From: an uncultured Paracoccaceae bacterium
GTDB lineage: Bacteria; Pseudomonadota; Alphaproteobacteria; Rhodobacterales; Rhodobacteraceae
NCBI GenBank assembly: GCA_937900975.1
Contig: CALCPC010000183.1
Location: forward strand, 1-20,350
Direction: 5' to 3'
DNA: 20,350 bases
The notes under the pieces were generated by a model. That model was not told where the DNA came from. It saw nothing but the letters and a program-made list of their open reading frames with translations, and ran no database searches. Below, one piece after another: positions 5,591 through 15,273 of the stretch. Numbering within the stretch: position 1 is the stretch's first letter; each line of letters starts with the position of its first letter. The translations under genes and the position numbers were made by a program.

Positions 5591-5674
5591 AATGCCCCCC
5601 GGGGTGCTGTGCCGACAGACACGCCGAGCCCGACGGCCAAGGCTGCGTGGGCCTGGCCGCCACGTCGCCCTTCT

Positions 5675-5783
5675 AGCGCTTTGTGAGGGCTTGAAGCCGA
5701 TAACGCGTTGAAGCCAAAGACTTCAACGCGTTGTACTGTGCCTCATGTCTCAGGTCTTTCACGAAGCGCCAGAGCATGGCGCT
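5675..5783 (+). repeat. Interspersed repeat copy 1 with two hairpins
   Basis: This is one of four related copies in the window. From AGCGCTTTGTGAGG (5675) it runs through the shared block CTTCAACGCGTT, GTGCCTCATGTCTCAGG and TTTCACGAAGCGC. It contains a perfect 12-bp inverted repeat, AACGCGTTGAAG (5702-5713) with CTTCAACGCGTT (5721-5732) around a 7-base loop. A second 7-bp stem, AGCGCCA/TGGCGCT (5765-5783), ends the unit. No T-run follows either stem. It lies 85 bases after the PhnD-like stop codon. Confidence 0.7.
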
Positions 5784-5839
5784 GGGGGGGGCCGCGCCCA
5801 GCTTGTGTCAGACCAGACAGCTATGGATCCGGACCGAAA

Positions 5840-5976
5840 CAGTTTTTGCCAAAACCCGCCGCCAGAACGGCGCTGAAGCGTATCGTGAGAACCTCAATCC
5901 AATAGCGCAGCCAGACATCGAAGATTTCAACGTGGTATGGGTGCCTGATGTCTGGGGTATTTCACAAAGTGATAAG
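5840..5976 (+). repeat. Interspersed repeat copy 2
   Basis: The core starts at AGCGTATCGTGAG (5877), 202 bases after the same point of copy 1 and in the same orientation. It shares AAGATTTCAACG, TGCCTGATGTCT and GGTATTTCACAAAG with the others. Its upstream flank CAGTTTTTGCC-AAAACCCGC (5840-5859) also matches the flank of the inverted copy after prfB, so the homology extends beyond the 100-base core. The 12-bp hairpin of copy 1 is not kept. Confidence 0.68.
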
Positions 5977-6209
5977 CCGGGCTTGGCGCGCCGCTGCTGT
6001 CCCCAGGTTTGGCCCAGTGGCGCGCGAAGTCGTTCGCGACCGCCGCCGGAACCCCTTGCCAAGGCAGAGCCTACGCGGAGCCCATAACAACCGACATTTG
6101 CGAGAGGCGCCGCGAAAACCGGTATAAAGCCTGCCGCGTCATAGCGCTGTTCGCGTTTGCGGTCGGCCGCCCTTGCGCTCGGTTTTGGGCTGGCGCCAGC
6201 GGCCGCGAC

Positions 6210-6233
6210 GGCCAGGGGCGCGGACCCCTGGCC
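6210..6233 (-). terminator. GC-rich stem-loop just after rne
   Basis: GGCCAGGGG (6210-6218) and CCCCTGGCC (6225-6233) form a perfect 9-bp stem with a 6-base loop, 7 bases past the rne stop codon. There is no T-run on the minus strand after it, so it is not a classical intrinsic terminator. It may protect the mRNA 3' end or act with Rho. Confidence 0.45.
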
Positions 6234-6239
6234 ATGGTG

Positions 6240-9200
6240 TCACGATGTCGATGCCCGAGACCACCATCCGCGTTTTTTCGGGGCCGCATCGCCCGACGCC
6301 GGGTCGGGCGCTGCGGCCAAAGCCACAGTGCCAGCCGGCGCGCCGTTGGCAGCATCGGCTGCCACTTGCGCAATGGTTTCCTCGGCGGACGCGCGGGTGC
6401 GCGGCTTAGGGCCTTTGCGGGTCGGTGTTGTGTCGGCGGATGCAGCGTCGTCGGTCGCCGCAGCAACTTCGGGTGCTGGTGCCGCGTCCGCCGCGGCCCC
6501 TTCGCCCGGGACGGGCGAGGACGCAACAGCGCCCGGGACGGGCGAGGACGCACCAGCGCCCGGGACAGGCGAAGACGCTATAGCGGCCGGGACGGGCGAA
6601 GACGCAATTTCGTCCGGGGCTGGCGAGGACGCAACAGCGTCCGGGGTTGGCGCGGACGCAACAGCACCCGGGACGGGCGCGGCTTCAACGTCGTCGGAAG
6701 CGTCGGGCGACGCAGCCGCCTGCGCCACGCTTTGAGATCCAACCGCGGCCGCGAGCGGGTCTGGTTCCGCGTAGTCTGTCAGAGGGGCCGCTTCCACGGT
6801 GCCGGTGCCGGGTGCAGTCCCTCCGTTTTGGGGGTCCGACACAATGTCCTGCTGCGCTGCGGCATCGGTCGGGGCCGGGCCAGTGGGGTTGGCGGCCGTC
6901 TGGTCCGCCGGTGGCGCTTGATGGCTTTCCACGCCGTTCGTCTGCTGCGCGGCGTCATCGGTTTCGGTCCCACCGCTTTGCGCAGCCGCGTCAACCGGTG
7001 CTGCGTCGTCGTTTGGCGCAGCGGCTGCAACGGTGACAAGCGTTCCATCTTCGGCCGCATCCGAACCGGCCTCGACCGTGGACGATTTCCGCGAGCGCCC
7101 GCGCGAGCGGGAGCGCGAGCGCGATTTTGGTTTCTCGTCAACATCGGACGCCGCTTCGGCCTCCGCTTCGGTCGGCTTGGTCTCCGCTACCTGCGCCTCG
7201 GCCTCAGCCGCCTCGTCGCCCGAACCGCTGCCTTTGCGCCGCCGCCGGCGCCGGCGCTTTTTCTTCGTCGGCTGCTCGTCGCCCGCAACCTCCACCCGGT
7301 CGACCTCCGCCTCGGTCGCAGCGTCTTCGACCTCCGGCTCCACCTCCGCCTCATCAAGCTCTGGCAGGGCTTCGACAACGCCTTCGATCACCTCAGGCTT
7401 GGGCAGGATGCGTGTCGCGTGCTTCAAACGCTCGATCTTGTATTCGGGGCTGATCAGCGCCGGGTCACCCTCCACGCGCACCGACAGGCCGAACCGGCCC
7501 TCGATCATCGCGACATGCTCTCGCTTGGCGTTGAGGATGTAATTGGCGATGCCAACGGGGCAACTGACCACAACCTCCTTGGCGCGGCGCCGCACGCCCT
7601 CTTCCTCCAACTCCCGCATAATGGCCAGCGCCAGACTGTCATCGGACCGGACCCGGCCGGTGCCATGGCAATGCGGGCAGGGCGCGGTTGTGGCCTCCAA
7701 CATACCGGGGCGCAGCCGCTGACGGCTCATCTCCAAAAGACCAAAGCCCGAGATGCGGCCGACCTGGATCCGCGCGCGGTCGGTCTTTAGCTTGTCCTTC
7801 AGACGTTTCTCGACTGCGGCGTTGTTGCGCCGATCCTCCATGTCGATGAAATCGATAACGATCAGCCCGGCCAGATCGCGCAGCCGCGCTTGCCGCGCGA
7901 CCTCCTCGGCGGCCTCAAGATTGGTCTTAAGCGCGGTTTCCTCGATCGAGCCCTCTTTGGTCGAGCGGCCAGAGTTGACGTCGACCGCCACCAGCGCCTC
8001 GGTCACGTCGATAACGATGTAGCCACCCGATTTCAGCTGTACCGTCGGGTTGAACATCGCCGACAGATAGCTTTCGACCTGATAGCGTGAGAACAGCGGC
8101 AAAGGCTCGTCATAAAGCTTTACGTTCTTGGCATGGCTCGGCATGAGCATGCGCATATAGTCCTTGGCCTCGCGGTAGCCGCGCTCCCCTTCGACAAAAA
8201 TCTCATCGATTTCGCGAGAGTAGAGATCGCGGATCGAGCGCTTGATCAGGCTGCCTTCCTCATAGATGGGGGCCGGGGCGATGGAGCGCAGCGTCAGGTC
8301 GCGGATCTGCTCCCACTGGCGCAACAGGAATTCATAATCGCGCTTGATCTCGGATTTGGTGCGTTTGGCGCCGGCGGTGCGGATGATCAGGCCAGCGCCT
8401 TGCGGCACGGTGATCTCTGACGCGATGTCCTTGAGTTTCTTGCGGTCGGTGGCGGACGTGATTTTGCGGCTGATCCCGCCGCCCCGGGCGGTGTTCGGCA
8501 TCAGAACGCAATAGCGGCCCGCGAGGCTAAGATAGGTGGTCAGCGCGGCGCCTTTGTTGCCGCGCTCCTCCTTCACGACTTGCACTAGAAGGATCTGGCG
8601 GACCTTTATAACCTCCTGAATGCGATAGCGTTTTGGCCGGGCCCGGCGCGGCGCGATCTCTTCCTTCATGTCTTCGGCGGCGACGCTGTCGTAATGGTCG
8701 TCTTCCGGTGCATCGGCGTCGGGATCTGTCGCGCCCTCGGCCGCGCCCACGGTTGCGTCGTCATCTGTCGATGCGTCGCTTTGCGCCGCTTCGTCTTCCG
8801 CCTCGCCCTCGATTGGATCTGCAGCGCCCGCGGTGTCGGGCGCAGCCTGTGCGGCATCACCTTCGGATGCCGCCTCGGGCGCGGGCCGAGATACGTCGTC
8901 TGCCGGCGCGCTTTGACCGGTTTCAGCGTCGGGTCCCGCTTGAGCGCTGTCGGATGCACTTGACGCCCCTGACGCCTCGGCGGGGGGCGCGTCCTGCGTG
9001 CTTTTCGGGGCATCCGGGTCGGCGTTCGCGGCGATGGGCGATGGATCATCCGGCCCGCCGTGGCCATCGACCGGTTCCAGGTCACCCGCTGGGCCGGACA
9101 GGGCACCGGCATCGCCCGCACCTTCAGGCGCGGTGCTGTCGGCGTCGGGTCCTTCGGCGCTTGGCGAAGCGTCTTGGTTTGGCTGCTCCCCGCTTTGCGC

Positions 9201-9674
9201 GGCGCCATCGGGGGCGCGTTTGGCCGTGCTGCCGTTTTCAGGCAGATCTTCGACCAGGGTCGACGCGGCTTCGGTTGGCACCTCTTCGGCCAAAACGGCA
9301 TCCGCGGGGGTGGTTTTCGCGGCCCGCGTGCGCCGGCGCGACTTTGGTTGGGTCTCGGCTTCCGCTTCTGCCTCTGCCGCGGCGTTTAACGCGGCTTCCT
9401 CGGCCAGCAGCGCCTCGCGGTCCGCGACGGGTATTTGATAATAGTCGGGATGAATTTCCGAGAATGCGAGGAAACCGTGCCGGTTGCCGCCATACTCGAC
9501 GAAGGCCGCTTGCAGCGACGGCTCTACCCGCGTGACTTTGGCAAGATAAATGTTTCCGGCAAGCTGCCTTTTGTTCAGAGACTCATAGTCGAAATCCTCA
9601 ACTTTGTTTCCGTCTGCGACCACGACGCGGGTTTCCTCCGCGTGCGTCGCATCGATCAGCATTTTCATGGACAT
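6240..9674 (-). CDS. rne: Ribonuclease E
   Basis: This is the essential endoribonuclease that starts mRNA decay, processes rRNA and tRNA, and scaffolds the degradosome. The protein has 1144 residues from the ATG at 9674, giving MSMKMLIDATHAEET; an ATG at 9668 is also possible. The S1 domain begins at about 38-80 (AGNIYLAKVTRVEPSLQAAFV), is interrupted by an acidic Ala/Asp/Pro/Glu insertion (about 85-348), and resumes with KVRQILLVQVVKEERGNKGA. Catalytic metal ligands are Asp565 in VAVDVNSGRS and Asp608 in VIDFIDM. The zinc-link is CPHC (666-669). The C-terminal half is disordered, with a basic KKKRRRRRRRK tract (804-814), an SR-rich patch (849-864), seven 9-residue repeats (995-1057) and a final KKRGWW (1133-1138), which matches the PNPase-docking peptide known from Caulobacter. 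Family members autoregulate through their 5' leader. Confidence 0.97.
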   Translation of the reverse strand: MSMKMLIDATHAEETRVVVADGNKVEDFDYESLNKRQLAGNIYLAKVTRVEPSLQAAFVEYGGNRHGFLAFSEIHPDYYQIPVADREALLAEEAALNAAAEAEAEAETQPKSRRRTRAAKTTPADAVLAEEVPTEAASTLVEDLPENGSTAKRAPDGAAQSGEQPNQDASPSAEGPDADSTAPEGAGDAGALSGPAGDLEPVDGHGGPDDPSPIAANADPDAPKSTQDAPPAEASGASSASDSAQAGPDAETGQSAPADDVSRPAPEAASEGDAAQAAPDTAGAADPIEGEAEDEAAQSDASTDDDATVGAAEGATDPDADAPEDDHYDSVAAEDMKEEIAPRRARPKRYRIQEVIKVRQILLVQVVKEERGNKGAALTTYLSLAGRYCVLMPNTARGGGISRKITSATDRKKLKDIASEITVPQGAGLIIRTAGAKRTKSEIKRDYEFLLRQWEQIRDLTLRSIAPAPIYEEGSLIKRSIRDLYSREIDEIFVEGERGYREAKDYMRMLMPSHAKNVKLYDEPLPLFSRYQVESYLSAMFNPTVQLKSGGYIVIDVTEALVAVDVNSGRSTKEGSIEETALKTNLEAAEEVARQARLRDLAGLIVIDFIDMEDRRNNAAVEKRLKDKLKTDRARIQVGRISGFGLLEMSRQRLRPGMLEATTAPCPHCHGTGRVRSDDSLALAIMRELEEEGVRRRAKEVVVSCPVGIANYILNAKREHVAMIEGRFGLSVRVEGDPALISPEYKIERLKHATRILPKPEVIEGVVEALPELDEAEVEPEVEDAATEAEVDRVEVAGDEQPTKKKRRRRRRRKGSGSGDEAAEAEAQVAETKPTEAEAEAASDVDEKPKSRSRSRSRGRSRKSSTVEAGSDAAEDGTLVTVAAAAPNDDAAPVDAAAQSGGTETDDAAQQTNGVESHQAPPADQTAANPTGPAPTDAAAQQDIVSDPQNGGTAPGTGTVEAAPLTDYAEPDPLAAAVGSQSVAQAAASPDASDDVEAAPVPGAVASAPTPDAVASSPAPDEIASSPVPAAIASSPVPGAGASSPVPGAVASSPVPGEGAAADAAPAPEVAAATDDAASADTTPTRKGPKPRTRASAEETIAQVAADAANGAPAGTVALAAAPDPASGDAAPKKRGWWSRASTS
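6505..6693. repeat. Seven tandem 27-bp units inside rne
   Basis: Units start at 6505, 6532, 6559, 6586, 6613, 6640 and 6667. On the minus strand each encodes a variant of PVPGAVASS (for example PTPDAVASS, PAPDEIASS, PVPAAIASS). The first two units on the plus strand are nearly identical, suggesting recent expansion by slippage or unequal recombination. They add length to the disordered RNase E tail. Confidence 0.92.
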
Positions 9675-10000
9675 TGAGTGTGGGTGTCTTTCGCAGCCCA
9701 ATCCAGCGATCCGGGCCAAGCGGGCCAGGGTCGCGGGGTTGCGGCGTCATTGGGGTCCGAAGCGGGGACCAGCCTGGCCGCCGAACCCACCCGCCAAAGG
9801 GCGGACGTTCGGGCAGGCATAGGGTCTCGGAACGCTCCATCGCGGTTAATCTCCAGCGCCAGGGGGCGCTCATCGGTCGTGCCCTGGAAAATCGGGCGGG
9901 GCGGTGAAGGGGCACCGGGCGCAGGGCGGGGAGTAAAAGTGTCGCGGCGATCCAGTCGCCTATCGCCCAGAAATCACGCTTCTGCGCCAAATTTACTGGC

Positions 10001-10016
10001 TCCGACACATGTCGGA
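10001..10016. promoter_or_regulatory. 16-base palindrome, candidate operator
   Basis: TCCGACA-CA-TGTCGGA is a perfect 7-bp inverted repeat with a 2-base centre, lying in the divergent rne–mrcA region about 240 bases before the mrcA start and 330 bases before the rne start. The form fits a dimeric transcription factor site. The protein is unknown. Confidence 0.35.
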
Positions 10017-10118
10017 TCTCGTCAGACTATCGCCTGCGGCAGGCGAAACACAATCGCTTTTTACCCGCTTTTTTAAGACAGTGCGCCGGCGGCCACCCGC
10101 CGGGCGGCCCGACAGCCC

Positions 10119-10147
10119 TTGATCGACCGCGCGGAACAGACGATAAA
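10119..10147 (+). promoter_or_regulatory. Candidate mrcA promoter
   Basis: TTGATC (10119-10124) and GATAAA (10142-10147) are separated by 17 bases, and each matches 4 of 6 consensus positions. Transcription would begin near 10154, leaving a leader of about 90 bases before the GTG start at 10242. This also argues against the upstream TTG and ATG codons as starts. Confidence 0.35.
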
Positions 10148-10241
10148 CATGTCAAGGCCGCGGGATCGGATTCCGTGCCACAGCGAAGCCCCGGCCACGG
10201 GCCCGGGCCTCGCCACATTATTAGAGACAAGGACCGTCACC

Positions 10242-12785
10242 GTGCGTGCAGTGCTGAATTTCTTCGGGTTTCTCTTCGCCTGGGCCAGCCTCGGCCTGAT
10301 CGCCGTCATGATGGCCATCGGGGCGATTTTCTTTTTCTACAGCAAAGATCTGCCCGATCATGAGCAATTGGCCCAGTATGAGCCGGCGACGATCAGCCGG
10401 GTTTATTCGGCCCGCGGGCTGGTGATGGACGAATTCGCGCAAGAACGCCGCATCTTCACGCCGGTCGATGAGGTGCCGGCGCTGATCAAGCAGGCCTTTA
10501 TCAGTGCCGAGGACAAGAATTTTTACACCCATGCAGGCTTTGATCCCTTGGCGCTTGGCAAAGCCATCTTTGACTGGCTGCAGGGCGGACGGTTGCGGGG
10601 CGCCTCGGGCATCACACAGCAGGTGATGAAGAACTTCCTTCTCGACGGGTCCCGCGAGGTGGAGCGTAAGATCAAAGAACTGATCTTGGCCGTGCGGGTC
10701 GAACAGGCGCTGACCAAGGACGACATCCTGGGGCTCTATCTTAATGAGATCTACCTTGGGCAAAACTCTTACGGGATCACGTCGGCGGCGCTGACGTATT
10801 TCGCCAAGTCGTTGGAGGAGTTGACGCCGGCGGAGGCGGCATACCTCGCGGCGCTGCCGCAACGCCCCGCACGGCTTCACCCCGTGCGCAACTACGATGA
10901 CGCGGTGTGGCGCCGGAACTTCGTTTTGAAAGAGATGTTCGAGAACGGGTATATCGACGGAGAGACCTATGAGGCCGAGAAGGCCGAGCCGTTGCGCACC
11001 GTGCAATCGGGGGATTTTCTGTCCGCGCGCGGCGCGCTGCCGCCGCGGGACTATTTTACCGACGAGATCCGGCGTCAGCTTTCCGCGCGGCTGCCGGGCG
11101 GCGAAGATCAGCTTTTCGGTGGCGGACTGCCGATCCGCGCCACAGTCGAGCCGCCGCTTCAGGCAAAGGCCGCCGAGGCACTGCGGCGCGGGTTGGAGAA
11201 ATACGACCGCTCTCGCGGGGGCTATCTCGGCCCGCTGGCCACGCTCGACCCCGAGGCGCTGGAGGATGAAGAGAGCTGGCGCGCCGCGCTTGCGCAGACG
11301 CGCGTGTCGCGCGACCTCGTCGGTTGGATCCCTGCGGTTGTGCTGGAGGTAGGGGACAACGCGGCCCGCATCGGCATCGAGGGTGTCGAGGAGGACGCCG
11401 ACGGCCATTTCTTGACGCTCCAGGATGCGAATTGGATCCAGCGGATCCGGGCCACCGACCGACCCAGCGCCAAGCCCCGCCGGCCTGCCGACCTTTGGCA
11501 AGTGGGCGATGTGGTGCTGGTGCGCGCGGTGATCGAGAACGGCGCCTTTCAGCGCTGGACGCTGCGCCAGATCCCCGAAATCCAGGGCGCCTTTATGGCG
11601 ATGGATGTGCAGACAGGCCGGGTTTTGGCGATGCAGGGCGGGTTTTCCTACCAGCACTCCGTCTTCAACCGCGCGACCCAAGCCCCGCGGCAGCCGGGGT
11701 CGAGCTTCAAACCCTTCGTCTATGCAGCGGCGCTGGACAGCGGCTACAACCCCAACACGATCGTGGTCGACGCCCCAGTCGAGGTCGACACCGCCGCTGG
11801 GATCTGGCGGCCGACCAATGCCTCCAACCGTTTCTACGGACCGGCGCCGATCCGCACAGGCATCGAGCAATCGCGCAACCTGATGACCGTGCGCATCGCG
11901 CAGGACATCGGCATGGACCGCGTCAGCCAATATGCCGAACGGTTCGGCGTTTATGAGGATATGCCGGCGTTCCTGTCCTACTCGCTCGGCGCGGGCGAGA
12001 CGACGCTTTACAAGATGGTCGCCGCCTATTCGATGTTTGCCAATGGCGGGCGGCAGGTGGAGCCTGCGCTGGTCGACCGCGTGCAGGACCGCTATGGCAA
12101 CACGCTCTTCCGCCAGGATCAGCGGAAATGTCGCTATTGCGGAGACGAGGACGCGCGGCCCGGGAAACTGCCCTGGATATGGAACGACGCCCGTCAGATC
12201 ATGGACCCGGTGACGGCGTATCAATTGTCCTCAATGATGCAGGGCGTGGTCAGCCGCGGCACGGCGGCCAACAGCGTCGGCAAGCTTGGCGTCCCGATCT
12301 CGGGCAAGACCGGCACCACGAACGAAAGCAAGGACGTCTGGTTCATCGGCTTTACGCCGCAGATCGCAGCGGGCTGCTATATGGGCTTCGATCAGCCCCG
12401 GCCGATGGGCCGAGGGGCCTATGGGGGAACCATGTGCGGCCCGGTCTTTGCCGAATTCATGAAGACCGCGTTGAAAGAGTTCAACAATTTTGAGCGTCCG
12501 CAGCCGCCAAACAGCGTGCTGGTAAAGATCGACCGCGGCTCTGGCGTGCGCGTTGGCAACAATTCCAGCGGCCGTCACATCGTGGCAGAGCTTTTCCGCC
12601 TGGGCGAGGAGCCGGCCATCGGCTCTTCCGGGCGCTATATCGATGGCGGTTTCGCAATGGGCGCCAACCTGCCCTTGTTCAGCCAGTCCACCGGCGGCGC
12701 GGCGGAGGTTACGGTGCGTGGGCAACGCACGGTCCTGCCGCAAAAACAGGGCTTTGGCGTCCTCCCGTCCGGGGGGCTTTACTAA
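10242..12785 (+). CDS. mrcA: Penicillin-binding protein 1A (bifunctional glycosyltransferase/transpeptidase)
   Basis: The protein polymerises lipid II into glycan strands and crosslinks the peptides in the periplasm. It has 847 residues and a single N-terminal membrane anchor (about 7-32). The GT51 domain shows EDKNFYTHAGFD (catalytic Glu90), GASGITQQVMKNFLL and LNEIYLGQNSYGI (Glu169). The transpeptidase domain has PGSSFKP with nucleophile Ser487 and Lys490, SRN (544-546) and KTG (689-691). Between the two domains lies an OB-like segment. A CRYC pair (630, 633) sits in a loop between the SRN and KTG motifs. The GTG at 10242 is chosen because it puts the anchor at the N-terminus and has AGGA 9 bases upstream; the open frame extends back to a TTG at 10119. 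The gene is followed by prfB on the same strand, 399 bases away. Confidence 0.96.
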   Translation: MRAVLNFFGFLFAWASLGLIAVMMAIGAIFFFYSKDLPDHEQLAQYEPATISRVYSARGLVMDEFAQERRIFTPVDEVPALIKQAFISAEDKNFYTHAGFDPLALGKAIFDWLQGGRLRGASGITQQVMKNFLLDGSREVERKIKELILAVRVEQALTKDDILGLYLNEIYLGQNSYGITSAALTYFAKSLEELTPAEAAYLAALPQRPARLHPVRNYDDAVWRRNFVLKEMFENGYIDGETYEAEKAEPLRTVQSGDFLSARGALPPRDYFTDEIRRQLSARLPGGEDQLFGGGLPIRATVEPPLQAKAAEALRRGLEKYDRSRGGYLGPLATLDPEALEDEESWRAALAQTRVSRDLVGWIPAVVLEVGDNAARIGIEGVEEDADGHFLTLQDANWIQRIRATDRPSAKPRRPADLWQVGDVVLVRAVIENGAFQRWTLRQIPEIQGAFMAMDVQTGRVLAMQGGFSYQHSVFNRATQAPRQPGSSFKPFVYAAALDSGYNPNTIVVDAPVEVDTAAGIWRPTNASNRFYGPAPIRTGIEQSRNLMTVRIAQDIGMDRVSQYAERFGVYEDMPAFLSYSLGAGETTLYKMVAAYSMFANGGRQVEPALVDRVQDRYGNTLFRQDQRKCRYCGDEDARPGKLPWIWNDARQIMDPVTAYQLSSMMQGVVSRGTAANSVGKLGVPISGKTGTTNESKDVWFIGFTPQIAAGCYMGFDQPRPMGRGAYGGTMCGPVFAEFMKTALKEFNNFERPQPPNSVLVKIDRGSGVRVGNNSSGRHIVAELFRLGEEPAIGSSGRYIDGGFAMGANLPLFSQSTGGAAEVTVRGQRTVLPQKQGFGVLPSGGLY

Positions 12786-13184
12786 AACGGGTTGCAGTTT
12801 GCAGTTCCGTCGCGTGCATGGCATCGGCCTTTGCCGTGTTGTGGAAACCGAAACCCCAGAATGTTGCCCGAAATCAGGGCTTTCAACACGGTATGGGACC
12901 CTTGATGGCTCGGGGGTTTGACCAAACGCGACGGGGCCGGAGAGCGGCGCTGGGCGATTTATGTCCCCTGGACGTTGATCGGCGCGACGCTGCGCCCCAA
13001 GGTCAGAACCGGCGGTGGACCGGTCGCACGGCCGCGAAGTCCCCGTCGCGCGCTGTGACACCGGCGCCGACCACCACCCCCCGAAACCCCGCGACGGCCA
13101 GGCGGCAGACCCCTTGCCGCCCGTTTGGACAGCGACTAAGACGAAGCGAACCCACCCGCTTATCAAGGACGTCGCCGCCACCCC
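12786..13184. other. mrcA–prfB intergenic region, 399 bases
   Basis: This contains one interspersed repeat copy (12833-12932). A 46-codon frame starting with TTG at 12918 is open but lacks a ribosome binding site and family features. No intrinsic terminator for mrcA is visible. Confidence 0.55.
12833..12932 (+). repeat. Interspersed repeat copy 3
   Basis: The copy begins GCCGTGTTGTGGAAACC and shares CTTTCAACACGGTATGGG, CCTTGATGGCTC and TTTGACCAAACGCG with copy 2, in almost the same spacing (TTCAAC begins at base 50 of the unit in both). Its own inner stem GCCC-GAAATCA-GGGC, flanked by TGTT/AACA, replaces the perfect hairpin of copy 1. It lies 47 bases after the mrcA stop and on the same strand. 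Confidence 0.6.
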
Positions 13185-14312
13185 ATGCGTGCCGAGACTG
13201 AAAACCACGTCGCCGAGATCGAAAAATCCCTCGCCCTCCTGCGCCAGCGGCTGGATTGGGACACGGCGGAGCATCGCTTGGAGGAGTATAACGCCCTCTC
13301 CGAAGCCCCCGCGCTTTGGAGCGACCCCGCGCGCGCGCAAAAACTGATGCGAGAGCGTCAGGCCCTGGCCAGCGCCATCGACCGGTTCAAGTCCCTATCG
13401 GGAGAGCTTCGGGACCAAATCGACCTTTTGGAGCTTGGCGAGGCCGAGGAAGACGCAGAAGTGACCGCCGACGCCGAGGCCGCCATCGCGGCGCTGAGAA
13501 CCACCGCGGCCGAAGCCGAGATCGAAGCCCTGCTCGACGGCGAGGCGGATGCCAACGACACGTATGTCGAGATCAATGCCGGCGCCGGTGGGACCGAGGC
13601 CAATGACTGGGCGCAGATGCTGGCGCGGATGTATGTCCGCTGGGCCGAAAAGCGCCGGTTCAAAGTGGAACTTGTCTCGGAAAACGGTGGCGAGGAGGTG
13701 GGCATCAAATCGGCCACTTATCTTGTTAAGGGCCACAACGCGTTTGGCTGGATGAAAACAGAAAGCGGGGTTCACCGGCTGGTGCGCATGTCGCCCTTTG
13801 GCTCTGCCGACAAACGCCAGACATCCTTTGCCTCTGTCTGGGTCTATCCGGTCGTAGACGACACCATCGATATCGACATCAACCCGTCCGAGATCCGCGT
13901 CGACACCTATCGCAGCTCTGGCGCCGGCGGGCAGCACGTCAACACGACGGATTCTGCCGTGCGCATCACCCATATTCCCACCAACATCGTTGTCACCAGC
14001 TCCGAGAAATCGCAGCACCAGAACCGCGCCAATGCCATGGCCGCGCTAAAGTCGCGTTTGTACGAGCTTGAAATGAGGAAGCGGACCGAGGCGATCCAAG
14101 AGGCGCATGACGCCAAGGGGGATATCGGCTGGGGCAACCAGATCCGCTCTTACGTGCTGCAGCCCTATCAGATGGTCAAAGACCTGCGGACCAATGTGGA
14201 AACCTCCGACACGCAGGGCGTGCTGGATGGAGAGCTTGACGGGTTCATGGCGGCAACCCTGGCCCTGGATATGAGCGGCAAGAGCCGCGGCGACGCGCAA
14301 GCCGAGGCGTGA
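13185..14312 (+). CDS. prfB: Peptide chain release factor 2
   Basis: RF2 recognises UGA and UAA stop codons in the ribosomal A site and triggers peptide release. The protein has 375 residues. The stop-codon reading tripeptide SPF is at 203-205 ([15 protein letters not shown]), and the peptidyl-transferase GGQ motif is at 248-250 ([17 protein letters not shown]). The C-terminal block [12 protein letters not shown] and [18 protein letters not shown] is characteristic of RF2. The frame is uninterrupted through [12 protein letters not shown], where E. coli prfB has its autoregulatory UGA frameshift, so that control is absent here. The ATG at 13185 has AAGGA about 15 bases upstream, a rather long spacing. 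Gene order mrcA–prfB is shared with other alphaproteobacteria. Confidence 0.97.
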
Positions 14313-14444
14313 GGGGCCGCCGGGCGCCGGACGATCCCGCCTGACGCGCCGATCTGGCCAAAAGGGTCGCCCACTGGCAAAACGCTCCTCTCAACGGGTC
14401 GTAACGCGGTTCGGACTGACACGACACGACGAACCTGCCGCTGT

Positions 14445-14475
14445 AAAAAGCAGGGCCGCCGCGGGCCCGTCCTGC
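14445..14475 (-). terminator. Terminator-like hairpin at the end of repeat copy 4
   Basis: On the minus strand GCAG pairs with CTGC and GGCC with GGCC around CGCGGC, with a 4-base bulge, and the structure is followed by TTTTT. It directly follows the repeat copy read in its own orientation, so it could end a transcript from that element. The bulge and short T-run make it weaker than the bactofilin terminator. Confidence 0.4.
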
Positions 14476-14592
14476 GCTTCATGGAATACTTGAAACATCA
14501 AGCACGCCAGAACGCGTTGAAATCTTTGACGTCGGGCAGCGTTGTGGATCCAGTTTATTGCGAAACGCTTATGCGGGTTTTGGGTCAAGCTG
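14468..14592 (-). repeat. Interspersed repeat copy 4, inverted
   Basis: Read on the minus strand it gives AAAACCCGC-ATAAGCGTTTCGC, AAAGATTTCAACGCGTT, GTGCTTGATGTTTCAAG and TATTCCATGAAGCGCAGG. It matches copy 1 best in the second half and copy 2 in the upstream flank (CAGCTTGACCC-AAAACCCGC). TTCAACG begins at base 49 of the core, against 48-50 in the other copies. Confidence 0.68.
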
Positions 14593-15273
14593 AGGCAAGT
14601 GCTGTTGAGATAGGCGTTCAAGATTGGCGATTTCTGAGCCAATGCGAACCAAGGGTGCGTTGGGGTCGGAAGGTTGTCGCTCCCGATCAGAACGCTGGGG
14701 CGCTGCGCCTTTGGCCCTCCGGGACCCGTGGCTGGCGTTGTATTTGCGAATGCTGGTTTCGGTTTTGGAGTGACGGGGTAGGGGTATCCACCGGTGGCTG
14801 GCGCTTGGCGCGGGTCCGTCGCCGGCGCCATGGCCCAAAACCCCCTTCCCGGCGCACGCGCATCCGGGCGCTTGCGGCCATGGCGGGGCCTAGCCGAGCG
14901 CTTTGCAAGCGGGATTGGACACGGTTGCTGTTTCCCCGCGCGCACGCCGCCGGATAAGCCCGGGGCTTTGGCCGCTGTGCCATGGCAGTGGGCGAAAAAC
15001 GCGCCCATCTGTCGCTGCCGGAAATCGGCGTTCTCTGCGCCACGCAGAAGACCGTGTGTCCCACGCTTTTCGCGCCATGCTGCGGGGCAAACCCAGGCCG
15101 GTTCAGGGCAAAGGGGTTGCGAAAAATCCGTCCGACTCGAGCATCGCTGCGATCCCTGCCGATGTAGAGCGCGCCCTGTGACCCGGCCCGTCATTCGCGC
15201 CAAGCGGCGTCGGACGCCTGATAGGGCCCTTAGCCCCGGGGCAATTCGCGGGATGGGCGGGGACGGTCGTGCC

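Follow-up and report, generated by a model that had tools for sequence, protein, structure and literature searches.

The stretch of DNA analyzed here (20,350 nt from an uncultured Paracoccaceae bacterium; hereafter, the window) carries several intergenic copies of a sequence of roughly 100 bases, and the question that it raises is what these copies are. A preliminary description of the sequence left three readings side by side: a family of small RNAs, a non-autonomous mobile unit or a 3′-end processing element. The evidence presented below makes it very probable that the repeats are a non-autonomous DNA transposon (MITE) of the Rhodobacteraceae, ~102 bp long and TA-duplicating, most likely moved by an IS630 transposase.

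Detection of the Repeats

The window holds four genuine repeats. The edges of the copies were set by model R1, and a second model, R2, was made from 35 copies, 34 of them taken from other genomes and the last from a different contig of this genome. Since no window copy entered R2, the test of the window copies with this model is free of circularity. The copies are listed below (E values of copies 1–4 refer to R2 in the 20,350-nt window, filters off).

5669..5776, (-) (strand of the family consensus AGCGTTTC...GAAACGCT): MITE copy 1; R1 71.3 bits; R2 43.9 bits, E 2.5e-10
5871..5979, (-): MITE copy 2, decayed; R1 61.0 bits; R2 26.4 bits at 5876-5979, E 2.9e-5
12827..12936, (-): MITE copy 3, decayed; R1 60.7 bits; R2 28.5 bits at 12829-12936, E 7.3e-6
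14467..14575, (+): MITE copy 4, decayed; R1 72.6 bits; R2 40.4 bits at 14469-14575, E 2.7e-9
14978..15087, (-): fifth MITE copy, probable, strongly decayed; R1 35.5 bits; R2 24.1 bits, E 1.4e-4

All four copies originally pointed out were thus found by a model built without them (E 2.5e-10 to 2.9e-5), and these scores rule out chance similarity. The window probably also holds the fifth, decayed copy at 14978-15087; the best match in the window that is not a copy reached 11.8 bits with R2, and the opposite-strand reading of copy 1 scored 16.6 bits. With the R1 edges, copies 1–3 run the same way and copy 4 is reversed, as had been reported, and the copies lie outside genes, beyond the 3′ end of one (gene ends, here and below, come from a simple purpose-built codon-usage caller). 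Copies 2 and 4 were said to share the upstream flank AAAACCCGC; this sequence is not part of the element, its distance from the element's edge differs between the two copies, and the resemblance is taken as chance.

The existence of further genomic copies, which the preliminary description had proposed to check, was confirmed by BLAST, a search that depends on neither model. When copy 4 was used as the query, 41 places matched at E<=10 in its own genome, three of them window copies (copy 4 itself and copies 1 and 2); copy 3 was not recovered in this search. The source assembly is fragmented (907 contigs, 78% complete). The regions of two congeners that correspond to the window contain no copy of the repeat, R2 giving no match at E<=10 with default filters in 62 kb of orthologous sequence.

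The window also contains a repeat of another sort, at 6476-6718, where seven overlapping copies of an 81-base unit with 27-base spacing lie inside the frame 6240-9719. They encode a nine-residue repeat near the C-terminal end of this frame, which resembles an RNase E.

Structure of the Element

The family unit, of ~102 bp, is an imperfect palindrome, a feature absent from the preliminary description. In one orientation the alignments read Y-TA-N-AGCG...CGCT-N-TA-R, with terminal inverted repeats NAGCGTTTC...ACCTGA that extend into the near-palindrome. The fold has two helices, the outer one terminal, which are separated on one side by ~11 unpaired bases, and a conserved hairpin at its center. 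For the comparison with other genomes, 79 copies were left of 100 matches after dropping 21 (17 opposite-strand duplicates, one cut at the end of its locus and three of a 121-base variant); this set was picked by an exact core pattern, a choice that guarantees a conserved central hairpin but has no bearing on helices 1 and 2. In the 49 best-scoring of the 79 copies, information drops to about nil just beyond YTA and TAR, symmetrically. These sharp TA edges, together with the empty site described below, argue against the idea that the repeats are decayed pieces of one gene.

Within the window, the folding of copy 1 stands far above that of shuffled sequences (z -5.4 and -5.7 on the two strands), the sole exception among the four, since copies 2–4 fold no better than shuffles. 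The element is too short to encode a transposase. The earlier remark that it has none is true of the copies themselves, and the likely mover would be encoded elsewhere.

The motif GANTC was observed in the right arm of 54 of the 79 other-genome copies, against 2.8 expected from shuffling, and in two of 47 copies of this genome. It may be connected with CcrM methylation, or it may just belong to the end that a transposase binds. Its reading as a CcrM signal was set aside, as the left ends of IS630 elements also have GANTC and nearly all copies here are without it.

Two size variants were also seen. Short forms of ~50 bases, with both ends and without the central hairpin, occur in two genomes (L366:165-219, L367:152-210 and L368:179-233), and the longer variant of 121 bases gave weak matches in one MAG (L152:1970-2090, L152:6834-6954 and L121:6432-6552).

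Distribution of the Family

The repeat family is abundant in the Rhodobacteraceae, a major marine bacterial family. Genome-wide searches with the models score top candidates only, and the following counts and absences are therefore incomplete: with R1, this genome had 118 matches (a number of copies being counted twice, once per strand), one congener had 47 and the second had none; at the family level, 28 of 248 genomes matched, each from a different genus and the own genome included; at the class level, matches were confined to two of 289 genomes, namely the own genome and another of the same family. In the loci of this genome that were analyzed, 48 copies were found, 47 of which entered the context counts and 45 the alignment A2.

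An exact-core scan of named genomes detected at least 118 stretches. Among 80 of these 118, the titles name Rhodobacterales, Rhodobacteraceae, Paracoccaceae or unplaced Alphaproteobacteria MAGs; the remaining titles among these 80 give genera of the same three groups. The element was also present on plasmids, in five of 72,556 records (Roseobacter three, Pseudosulfitobacter one, Alisedimentitalea one), including plasmids of Roseobacter denitrificans and R. litoralis. No match to the element was detected in phage records and viral contigs.

Movement and Age of the Copies

An empty site was obtained for a copy of R. cerasinus, whose context is GGGGCTC-TA-[102 bp]-TA-GGCTG. The same place is uninterrupted in two Roseobacter congeners, reading GGGGCTCTAGGCC in one and GCTCTAGCGCG in the other. 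The insertion in R. cerasinus thus hit CTAG, which holds the TAG stop codon of the gene upstream; because CTAG is split in R. cerasinus and intact in the two congeners, the TA was duplicated at this one empty site with both flanks. Three of 16 further congeners were aligned at the junction, and all three have diverged too far there for a judgment; plasmid searches for three more empty sites returned a single flank each. Short, repeated, with terminal inverted repeats and a TA target duplication and without a transposase gene, the element fits the description of a MITE.

The mean pairwise identity was 91–95% among the four to nine copies in each of four other genomes, which points to recent spread there. 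In this genome it was 63% among 27 copies, and the departures from the consensus that occurred most often, A to G and T to C, shift the copies toward the GC content of the loci (65%). The window copies look like old relics.

Covariation of the Arms

The complementarity of the two arms was compared between and within genomes. Between genomes (35 copies, about one per genome), the arms were paired in 85.2% of cells versus 78.5% after shuffling, and doubly changed cells numbered 103 versus 47.9, a value reached in none of 500 shuffles and far above slid controls. Whole ends vary in concert, as in the AGCGAAATCGG and AGCACAATGCGAA variants. Within this genome (45 copies, with a pairing scheme set by hand), 74.0% of cells were paired versus 73.4% after shuffling. 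Double-change pairs numbered 28 versus 22.6 (reached in 8 of 500 shuffles) and doubly changed cells 64 versus 54.0 (26 of 500); three of the five covariation measures were outside the tail (45 copies, 500 shuffles), and RNAalifold returned no structure from the 45 in-genome copies. We infer that transposition, rather than a role of the individual settled copies, requires the palindrome to be symmetric.

Position of the Copies Relative to Genes

The copies favor the gaps between convergent genes. This was the location of 46 of the 71 other-genome copies for which both neighbors were called, against 56 of 388 YTAR sites, and of 28 of 37 copies in this genome, against 5 of 35 sites. Exact contact with a stop codon was observed for 41 of 79 other-genome copies versus 86 of 529 non-coding YTAR sites, with no excess in this genome (12/47 versus 31/106). 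Inside convergent gaps of the other genomes the excess of stop-codon contact was modest (30/46 versus 22/56, p 0.01), and in tandem gaps it was not significant (8/20 versus 49/227, p 0.09). Overlap with a called frame was limited to one of 79 other-genome copies and four of 47 here. Avoidance of genes and promoters alone may suffice to explain these positions, which would then be set by the avoidance of harm and not by active targeting.

The Likely Mover

An IS630-type transposase is the likely mover of the element, because the MITE ends resemble the ends of IS630-family elements on Rhodobacterales plasmids. In a sample of ten such plasmid IS, all from Rhodobacterales, eight span 1053–1078 bp and both of their ends best match MITE ends at 19–23 of 26 letters, the best of 79 control sites with the common start YTANAGCR reaching 16–22 of 26; in the other two, no MITE-like ends were found by the script. 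Past the common start, MITE ends of other genomes share about 10 of 18 letters with the IS ends, those of this genome 8–10 and the controls 5 (p 1e-23 to 2e-12, for copies that are not independent). The right end of the MITE is nearer to the left end of the IS in the other genomes and in this genome, and its left end nearer to the right end of the IS in the other genomes only. The left ends of IS630 elements carry GANTC (CTGAATC) in the same place as the element does, and nothing in the IS corresponds to the interior of the MITE.

Genomes were searched with PF13358, which was found in one of 11 and five of 10. Four of the 11 loci in the second set have a MITE-like end flanked by TA and seven are without similar ends. 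In a Roseobacter genome, the remnant shares 24 of 26 letters with a MITE end (maximum of 500 shuffles, 22); for the remaining three the agreement is 20, 20 and 18 letters, with shuffle maxima of 19, 20 and 19, so that two of the four stay within the shuffle maximum and another passes it by a single letter. The R. litoralis remnant best fits MITE ends of other genomes and not those of its own subfamily. One remnant is an IS630 by NCBIfam, with relatives in 506 plasmid records, mostly Rhizobiales at <60% identity.

End lists were complete for three genomes, and none of the three yielded a full-length partner that bears the ends of a copy; in one genome the end patterns gave 75 left-end and 99 right-end matches. 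Ends similar to those of IS630 are present, as expected of an IS630-derived MITE, and a full-length partner of the same subfamily was not found in any of the three genomes. Some candidates were rejected: in two pairs of left and right ends ~3 kb apart, the right ends were already part of short copies, and two facing left ends 522 bases apart were two separate copies. Beside the best-scoring copy of this genome, on contig C577, an IS630-family transposase is split over two frames (L277:1655-2595); it was discarded as a partner, as it lacks the MITE's ends and the locus is without another matching end.

Additionally, a second repeat was noticed in this genome. It begins with TTAGAGCATTTTCCGTTCAAAGTGA, has a TA-GAGC start as in IS630 ends, and its exact core occurs at three distinct sites in the loci analyzed (L030:1607-1627, L002:29-49 and L009:31-51).

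Discussion

The results can be brought together in one mechanism. The element would depend on a transposase supplied from elsewhere, most likely an IS630-family enzyme, that recognizes both of its ends and inserts it at the TA inside YTAR (e.g., CTAG) with duplication of the TA. Insertions would survive where they are least harmful, chiefly between convergent genes. The insertion would often fall in the TA of a stop codon, and the first bases of the element could restore the stop. In lineages where the element still moves the arms would remain complementary, and settled copies would diverge, as in the window. Thus, of the readings initially offered, that of a non-autonomous mobile unit is the one borne out, by the TA duplication at one empty site, the IS630-like ends and the patchy spread restricted to the family.

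The strongest case for another origin is that of conserved structured RNAs, or of 3′-end processing or terminator hairpins, selected at each site. The covariation between genomes is strong and the preference for convergent gene ends is clear (46/71 versus 56/388), both as such hairpins would have it, and yet compensating changes are scarcely seen among the copies in place (74.0% versus 73.4%), three of the four window copies do not surpass shuffled sequences in folding, the matching regions of two congeners are without a copy, and the empty site shows a TA duplication. Moreover, at the gathering score the window contains no Rfam family, one tRNA excepted. We consider this explanation improbable. 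The suggestion of a conserved small-RNA family is not supported, given the little compensating change in the genome and the two congener regions without a copy; that of a 3′-end element does not stand as the main reading, although a secondary role of this kind is possible, since the copies favor convergent gene ends.

Two known classes of repeats were also weighed against the transposon. The CIR repeats (CcrM-associated intergenic repeats) of Caulobacter and Brucella are of comparable size, alphaproteobacterial and intergenic, with TA ends, in the available part of their description (PMC2229807), and a GANTC in the right arm, as 54 of the 79 other-genome copies have it, would suit them. However, CIRs are described there as two arms with GANTC at the loop, and here there is one long hairpin with GANTC in the arm; just two of 47 copies in this genome have the motif, which may belong to the end because IS630 left ends hold it at the same place, and class matches are confined to genomes of the own family. 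Membership in the CIRs is thus very improbable. It is still harder to credit that these are REP-like elements moved by a RAYT (Y1) transposase: they are palindromic, extragenic and present in many copies, as REPs are, but such movement leaves no target duplication, and here a TA duplication was found at the empty site and the 102-bp unit has IS630-like terminal repeats.

The transposon reading places the repeats beside other MITEs. According to the sections available of PMC2229807, Correia, ERIC and RUP are MITEs with TA at their ends and target duplication, and RUP, of ~107 bp, has terminal repeats, shares its ends with an IS630-family element and is considered to be moved by the transposase of that element. 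The RUP of Streptococcus pneumoniae, with IS630-Spn1, is hence like the present family in size, terminal repeats, TA duplication and the tie to IS630; by description it differs in its host and in being reported near IS elements, whereas the copies here lie at convergent gene ends. ERIC of enterobacteria and Correia of Neisseria are likewise palindromic, with terminal repeats, TA ends and target duplication (PMC2229807), but their descriptions set them apart in hosts, terminal repeats and lengths; the copy number of ERIC varies strongly between taxa (PMC10969869, available part). CIRs resemble the family in length (~110 bp), intergenic location, TA ends and GANTC (PMC2229807), and are set apart by description through their two arms, against one hairpin, and by the near absence of GANTC in this genome. 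In the material available, the nearest published MITE found in the same order is MITEPye1 of Paracoccus yeei, also intergenic and with a long stem-loop, but linked to IS1182 and present in 1–3 copies per chromosome (PMC11578231). Br-REP1 and Br-REP2 of Bradyrhizobium, as far as the accessible text describes them, are also alphaproteobacterial palindromes in the 3′-UTRs of convergent genes, but are shorter units with other sequences in another order (PMC5082802).

The accessible part of a 2024 review (PMC10969869) makes no mention of Rhodobacter, Alphaproteobacteria or IS630, and no description of this ~102-bp family was found in what is available of the open literature on Rhodobacteraceae/Roseobacter repeats and IS630 MITEs, ISfinder apart. 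On the published descriptions available, this is a new family of a known kind of element.

A more specific form of the transposon reading, doubtful in our opinion, is that the element is adapted to stop codons: its YTAR target would approximate overlapping convergent stop codons, both of its ends would supply a quick in-frame stop, and the host would use the hairpin as a two-way transcript end. If so, one insertion of the transposon could interrupt the stops of both neighboring genes and do no harm, and its spread would reshape the 3′ ends of many Rhodobacteraceae genes.

Therefore, an abundant and, in the literature searched, apparently undescribed repeat of marine Rhodobacteraceae gains an identity. 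As pairing is kept between lineages and scarcely among settled copies within the genome, the family is a naturally occurring case in which to test what maintains a palindrome. Together, the MITE and the IS630 element form a pair in which movement and any effects on convergent gene ends are directly testable.
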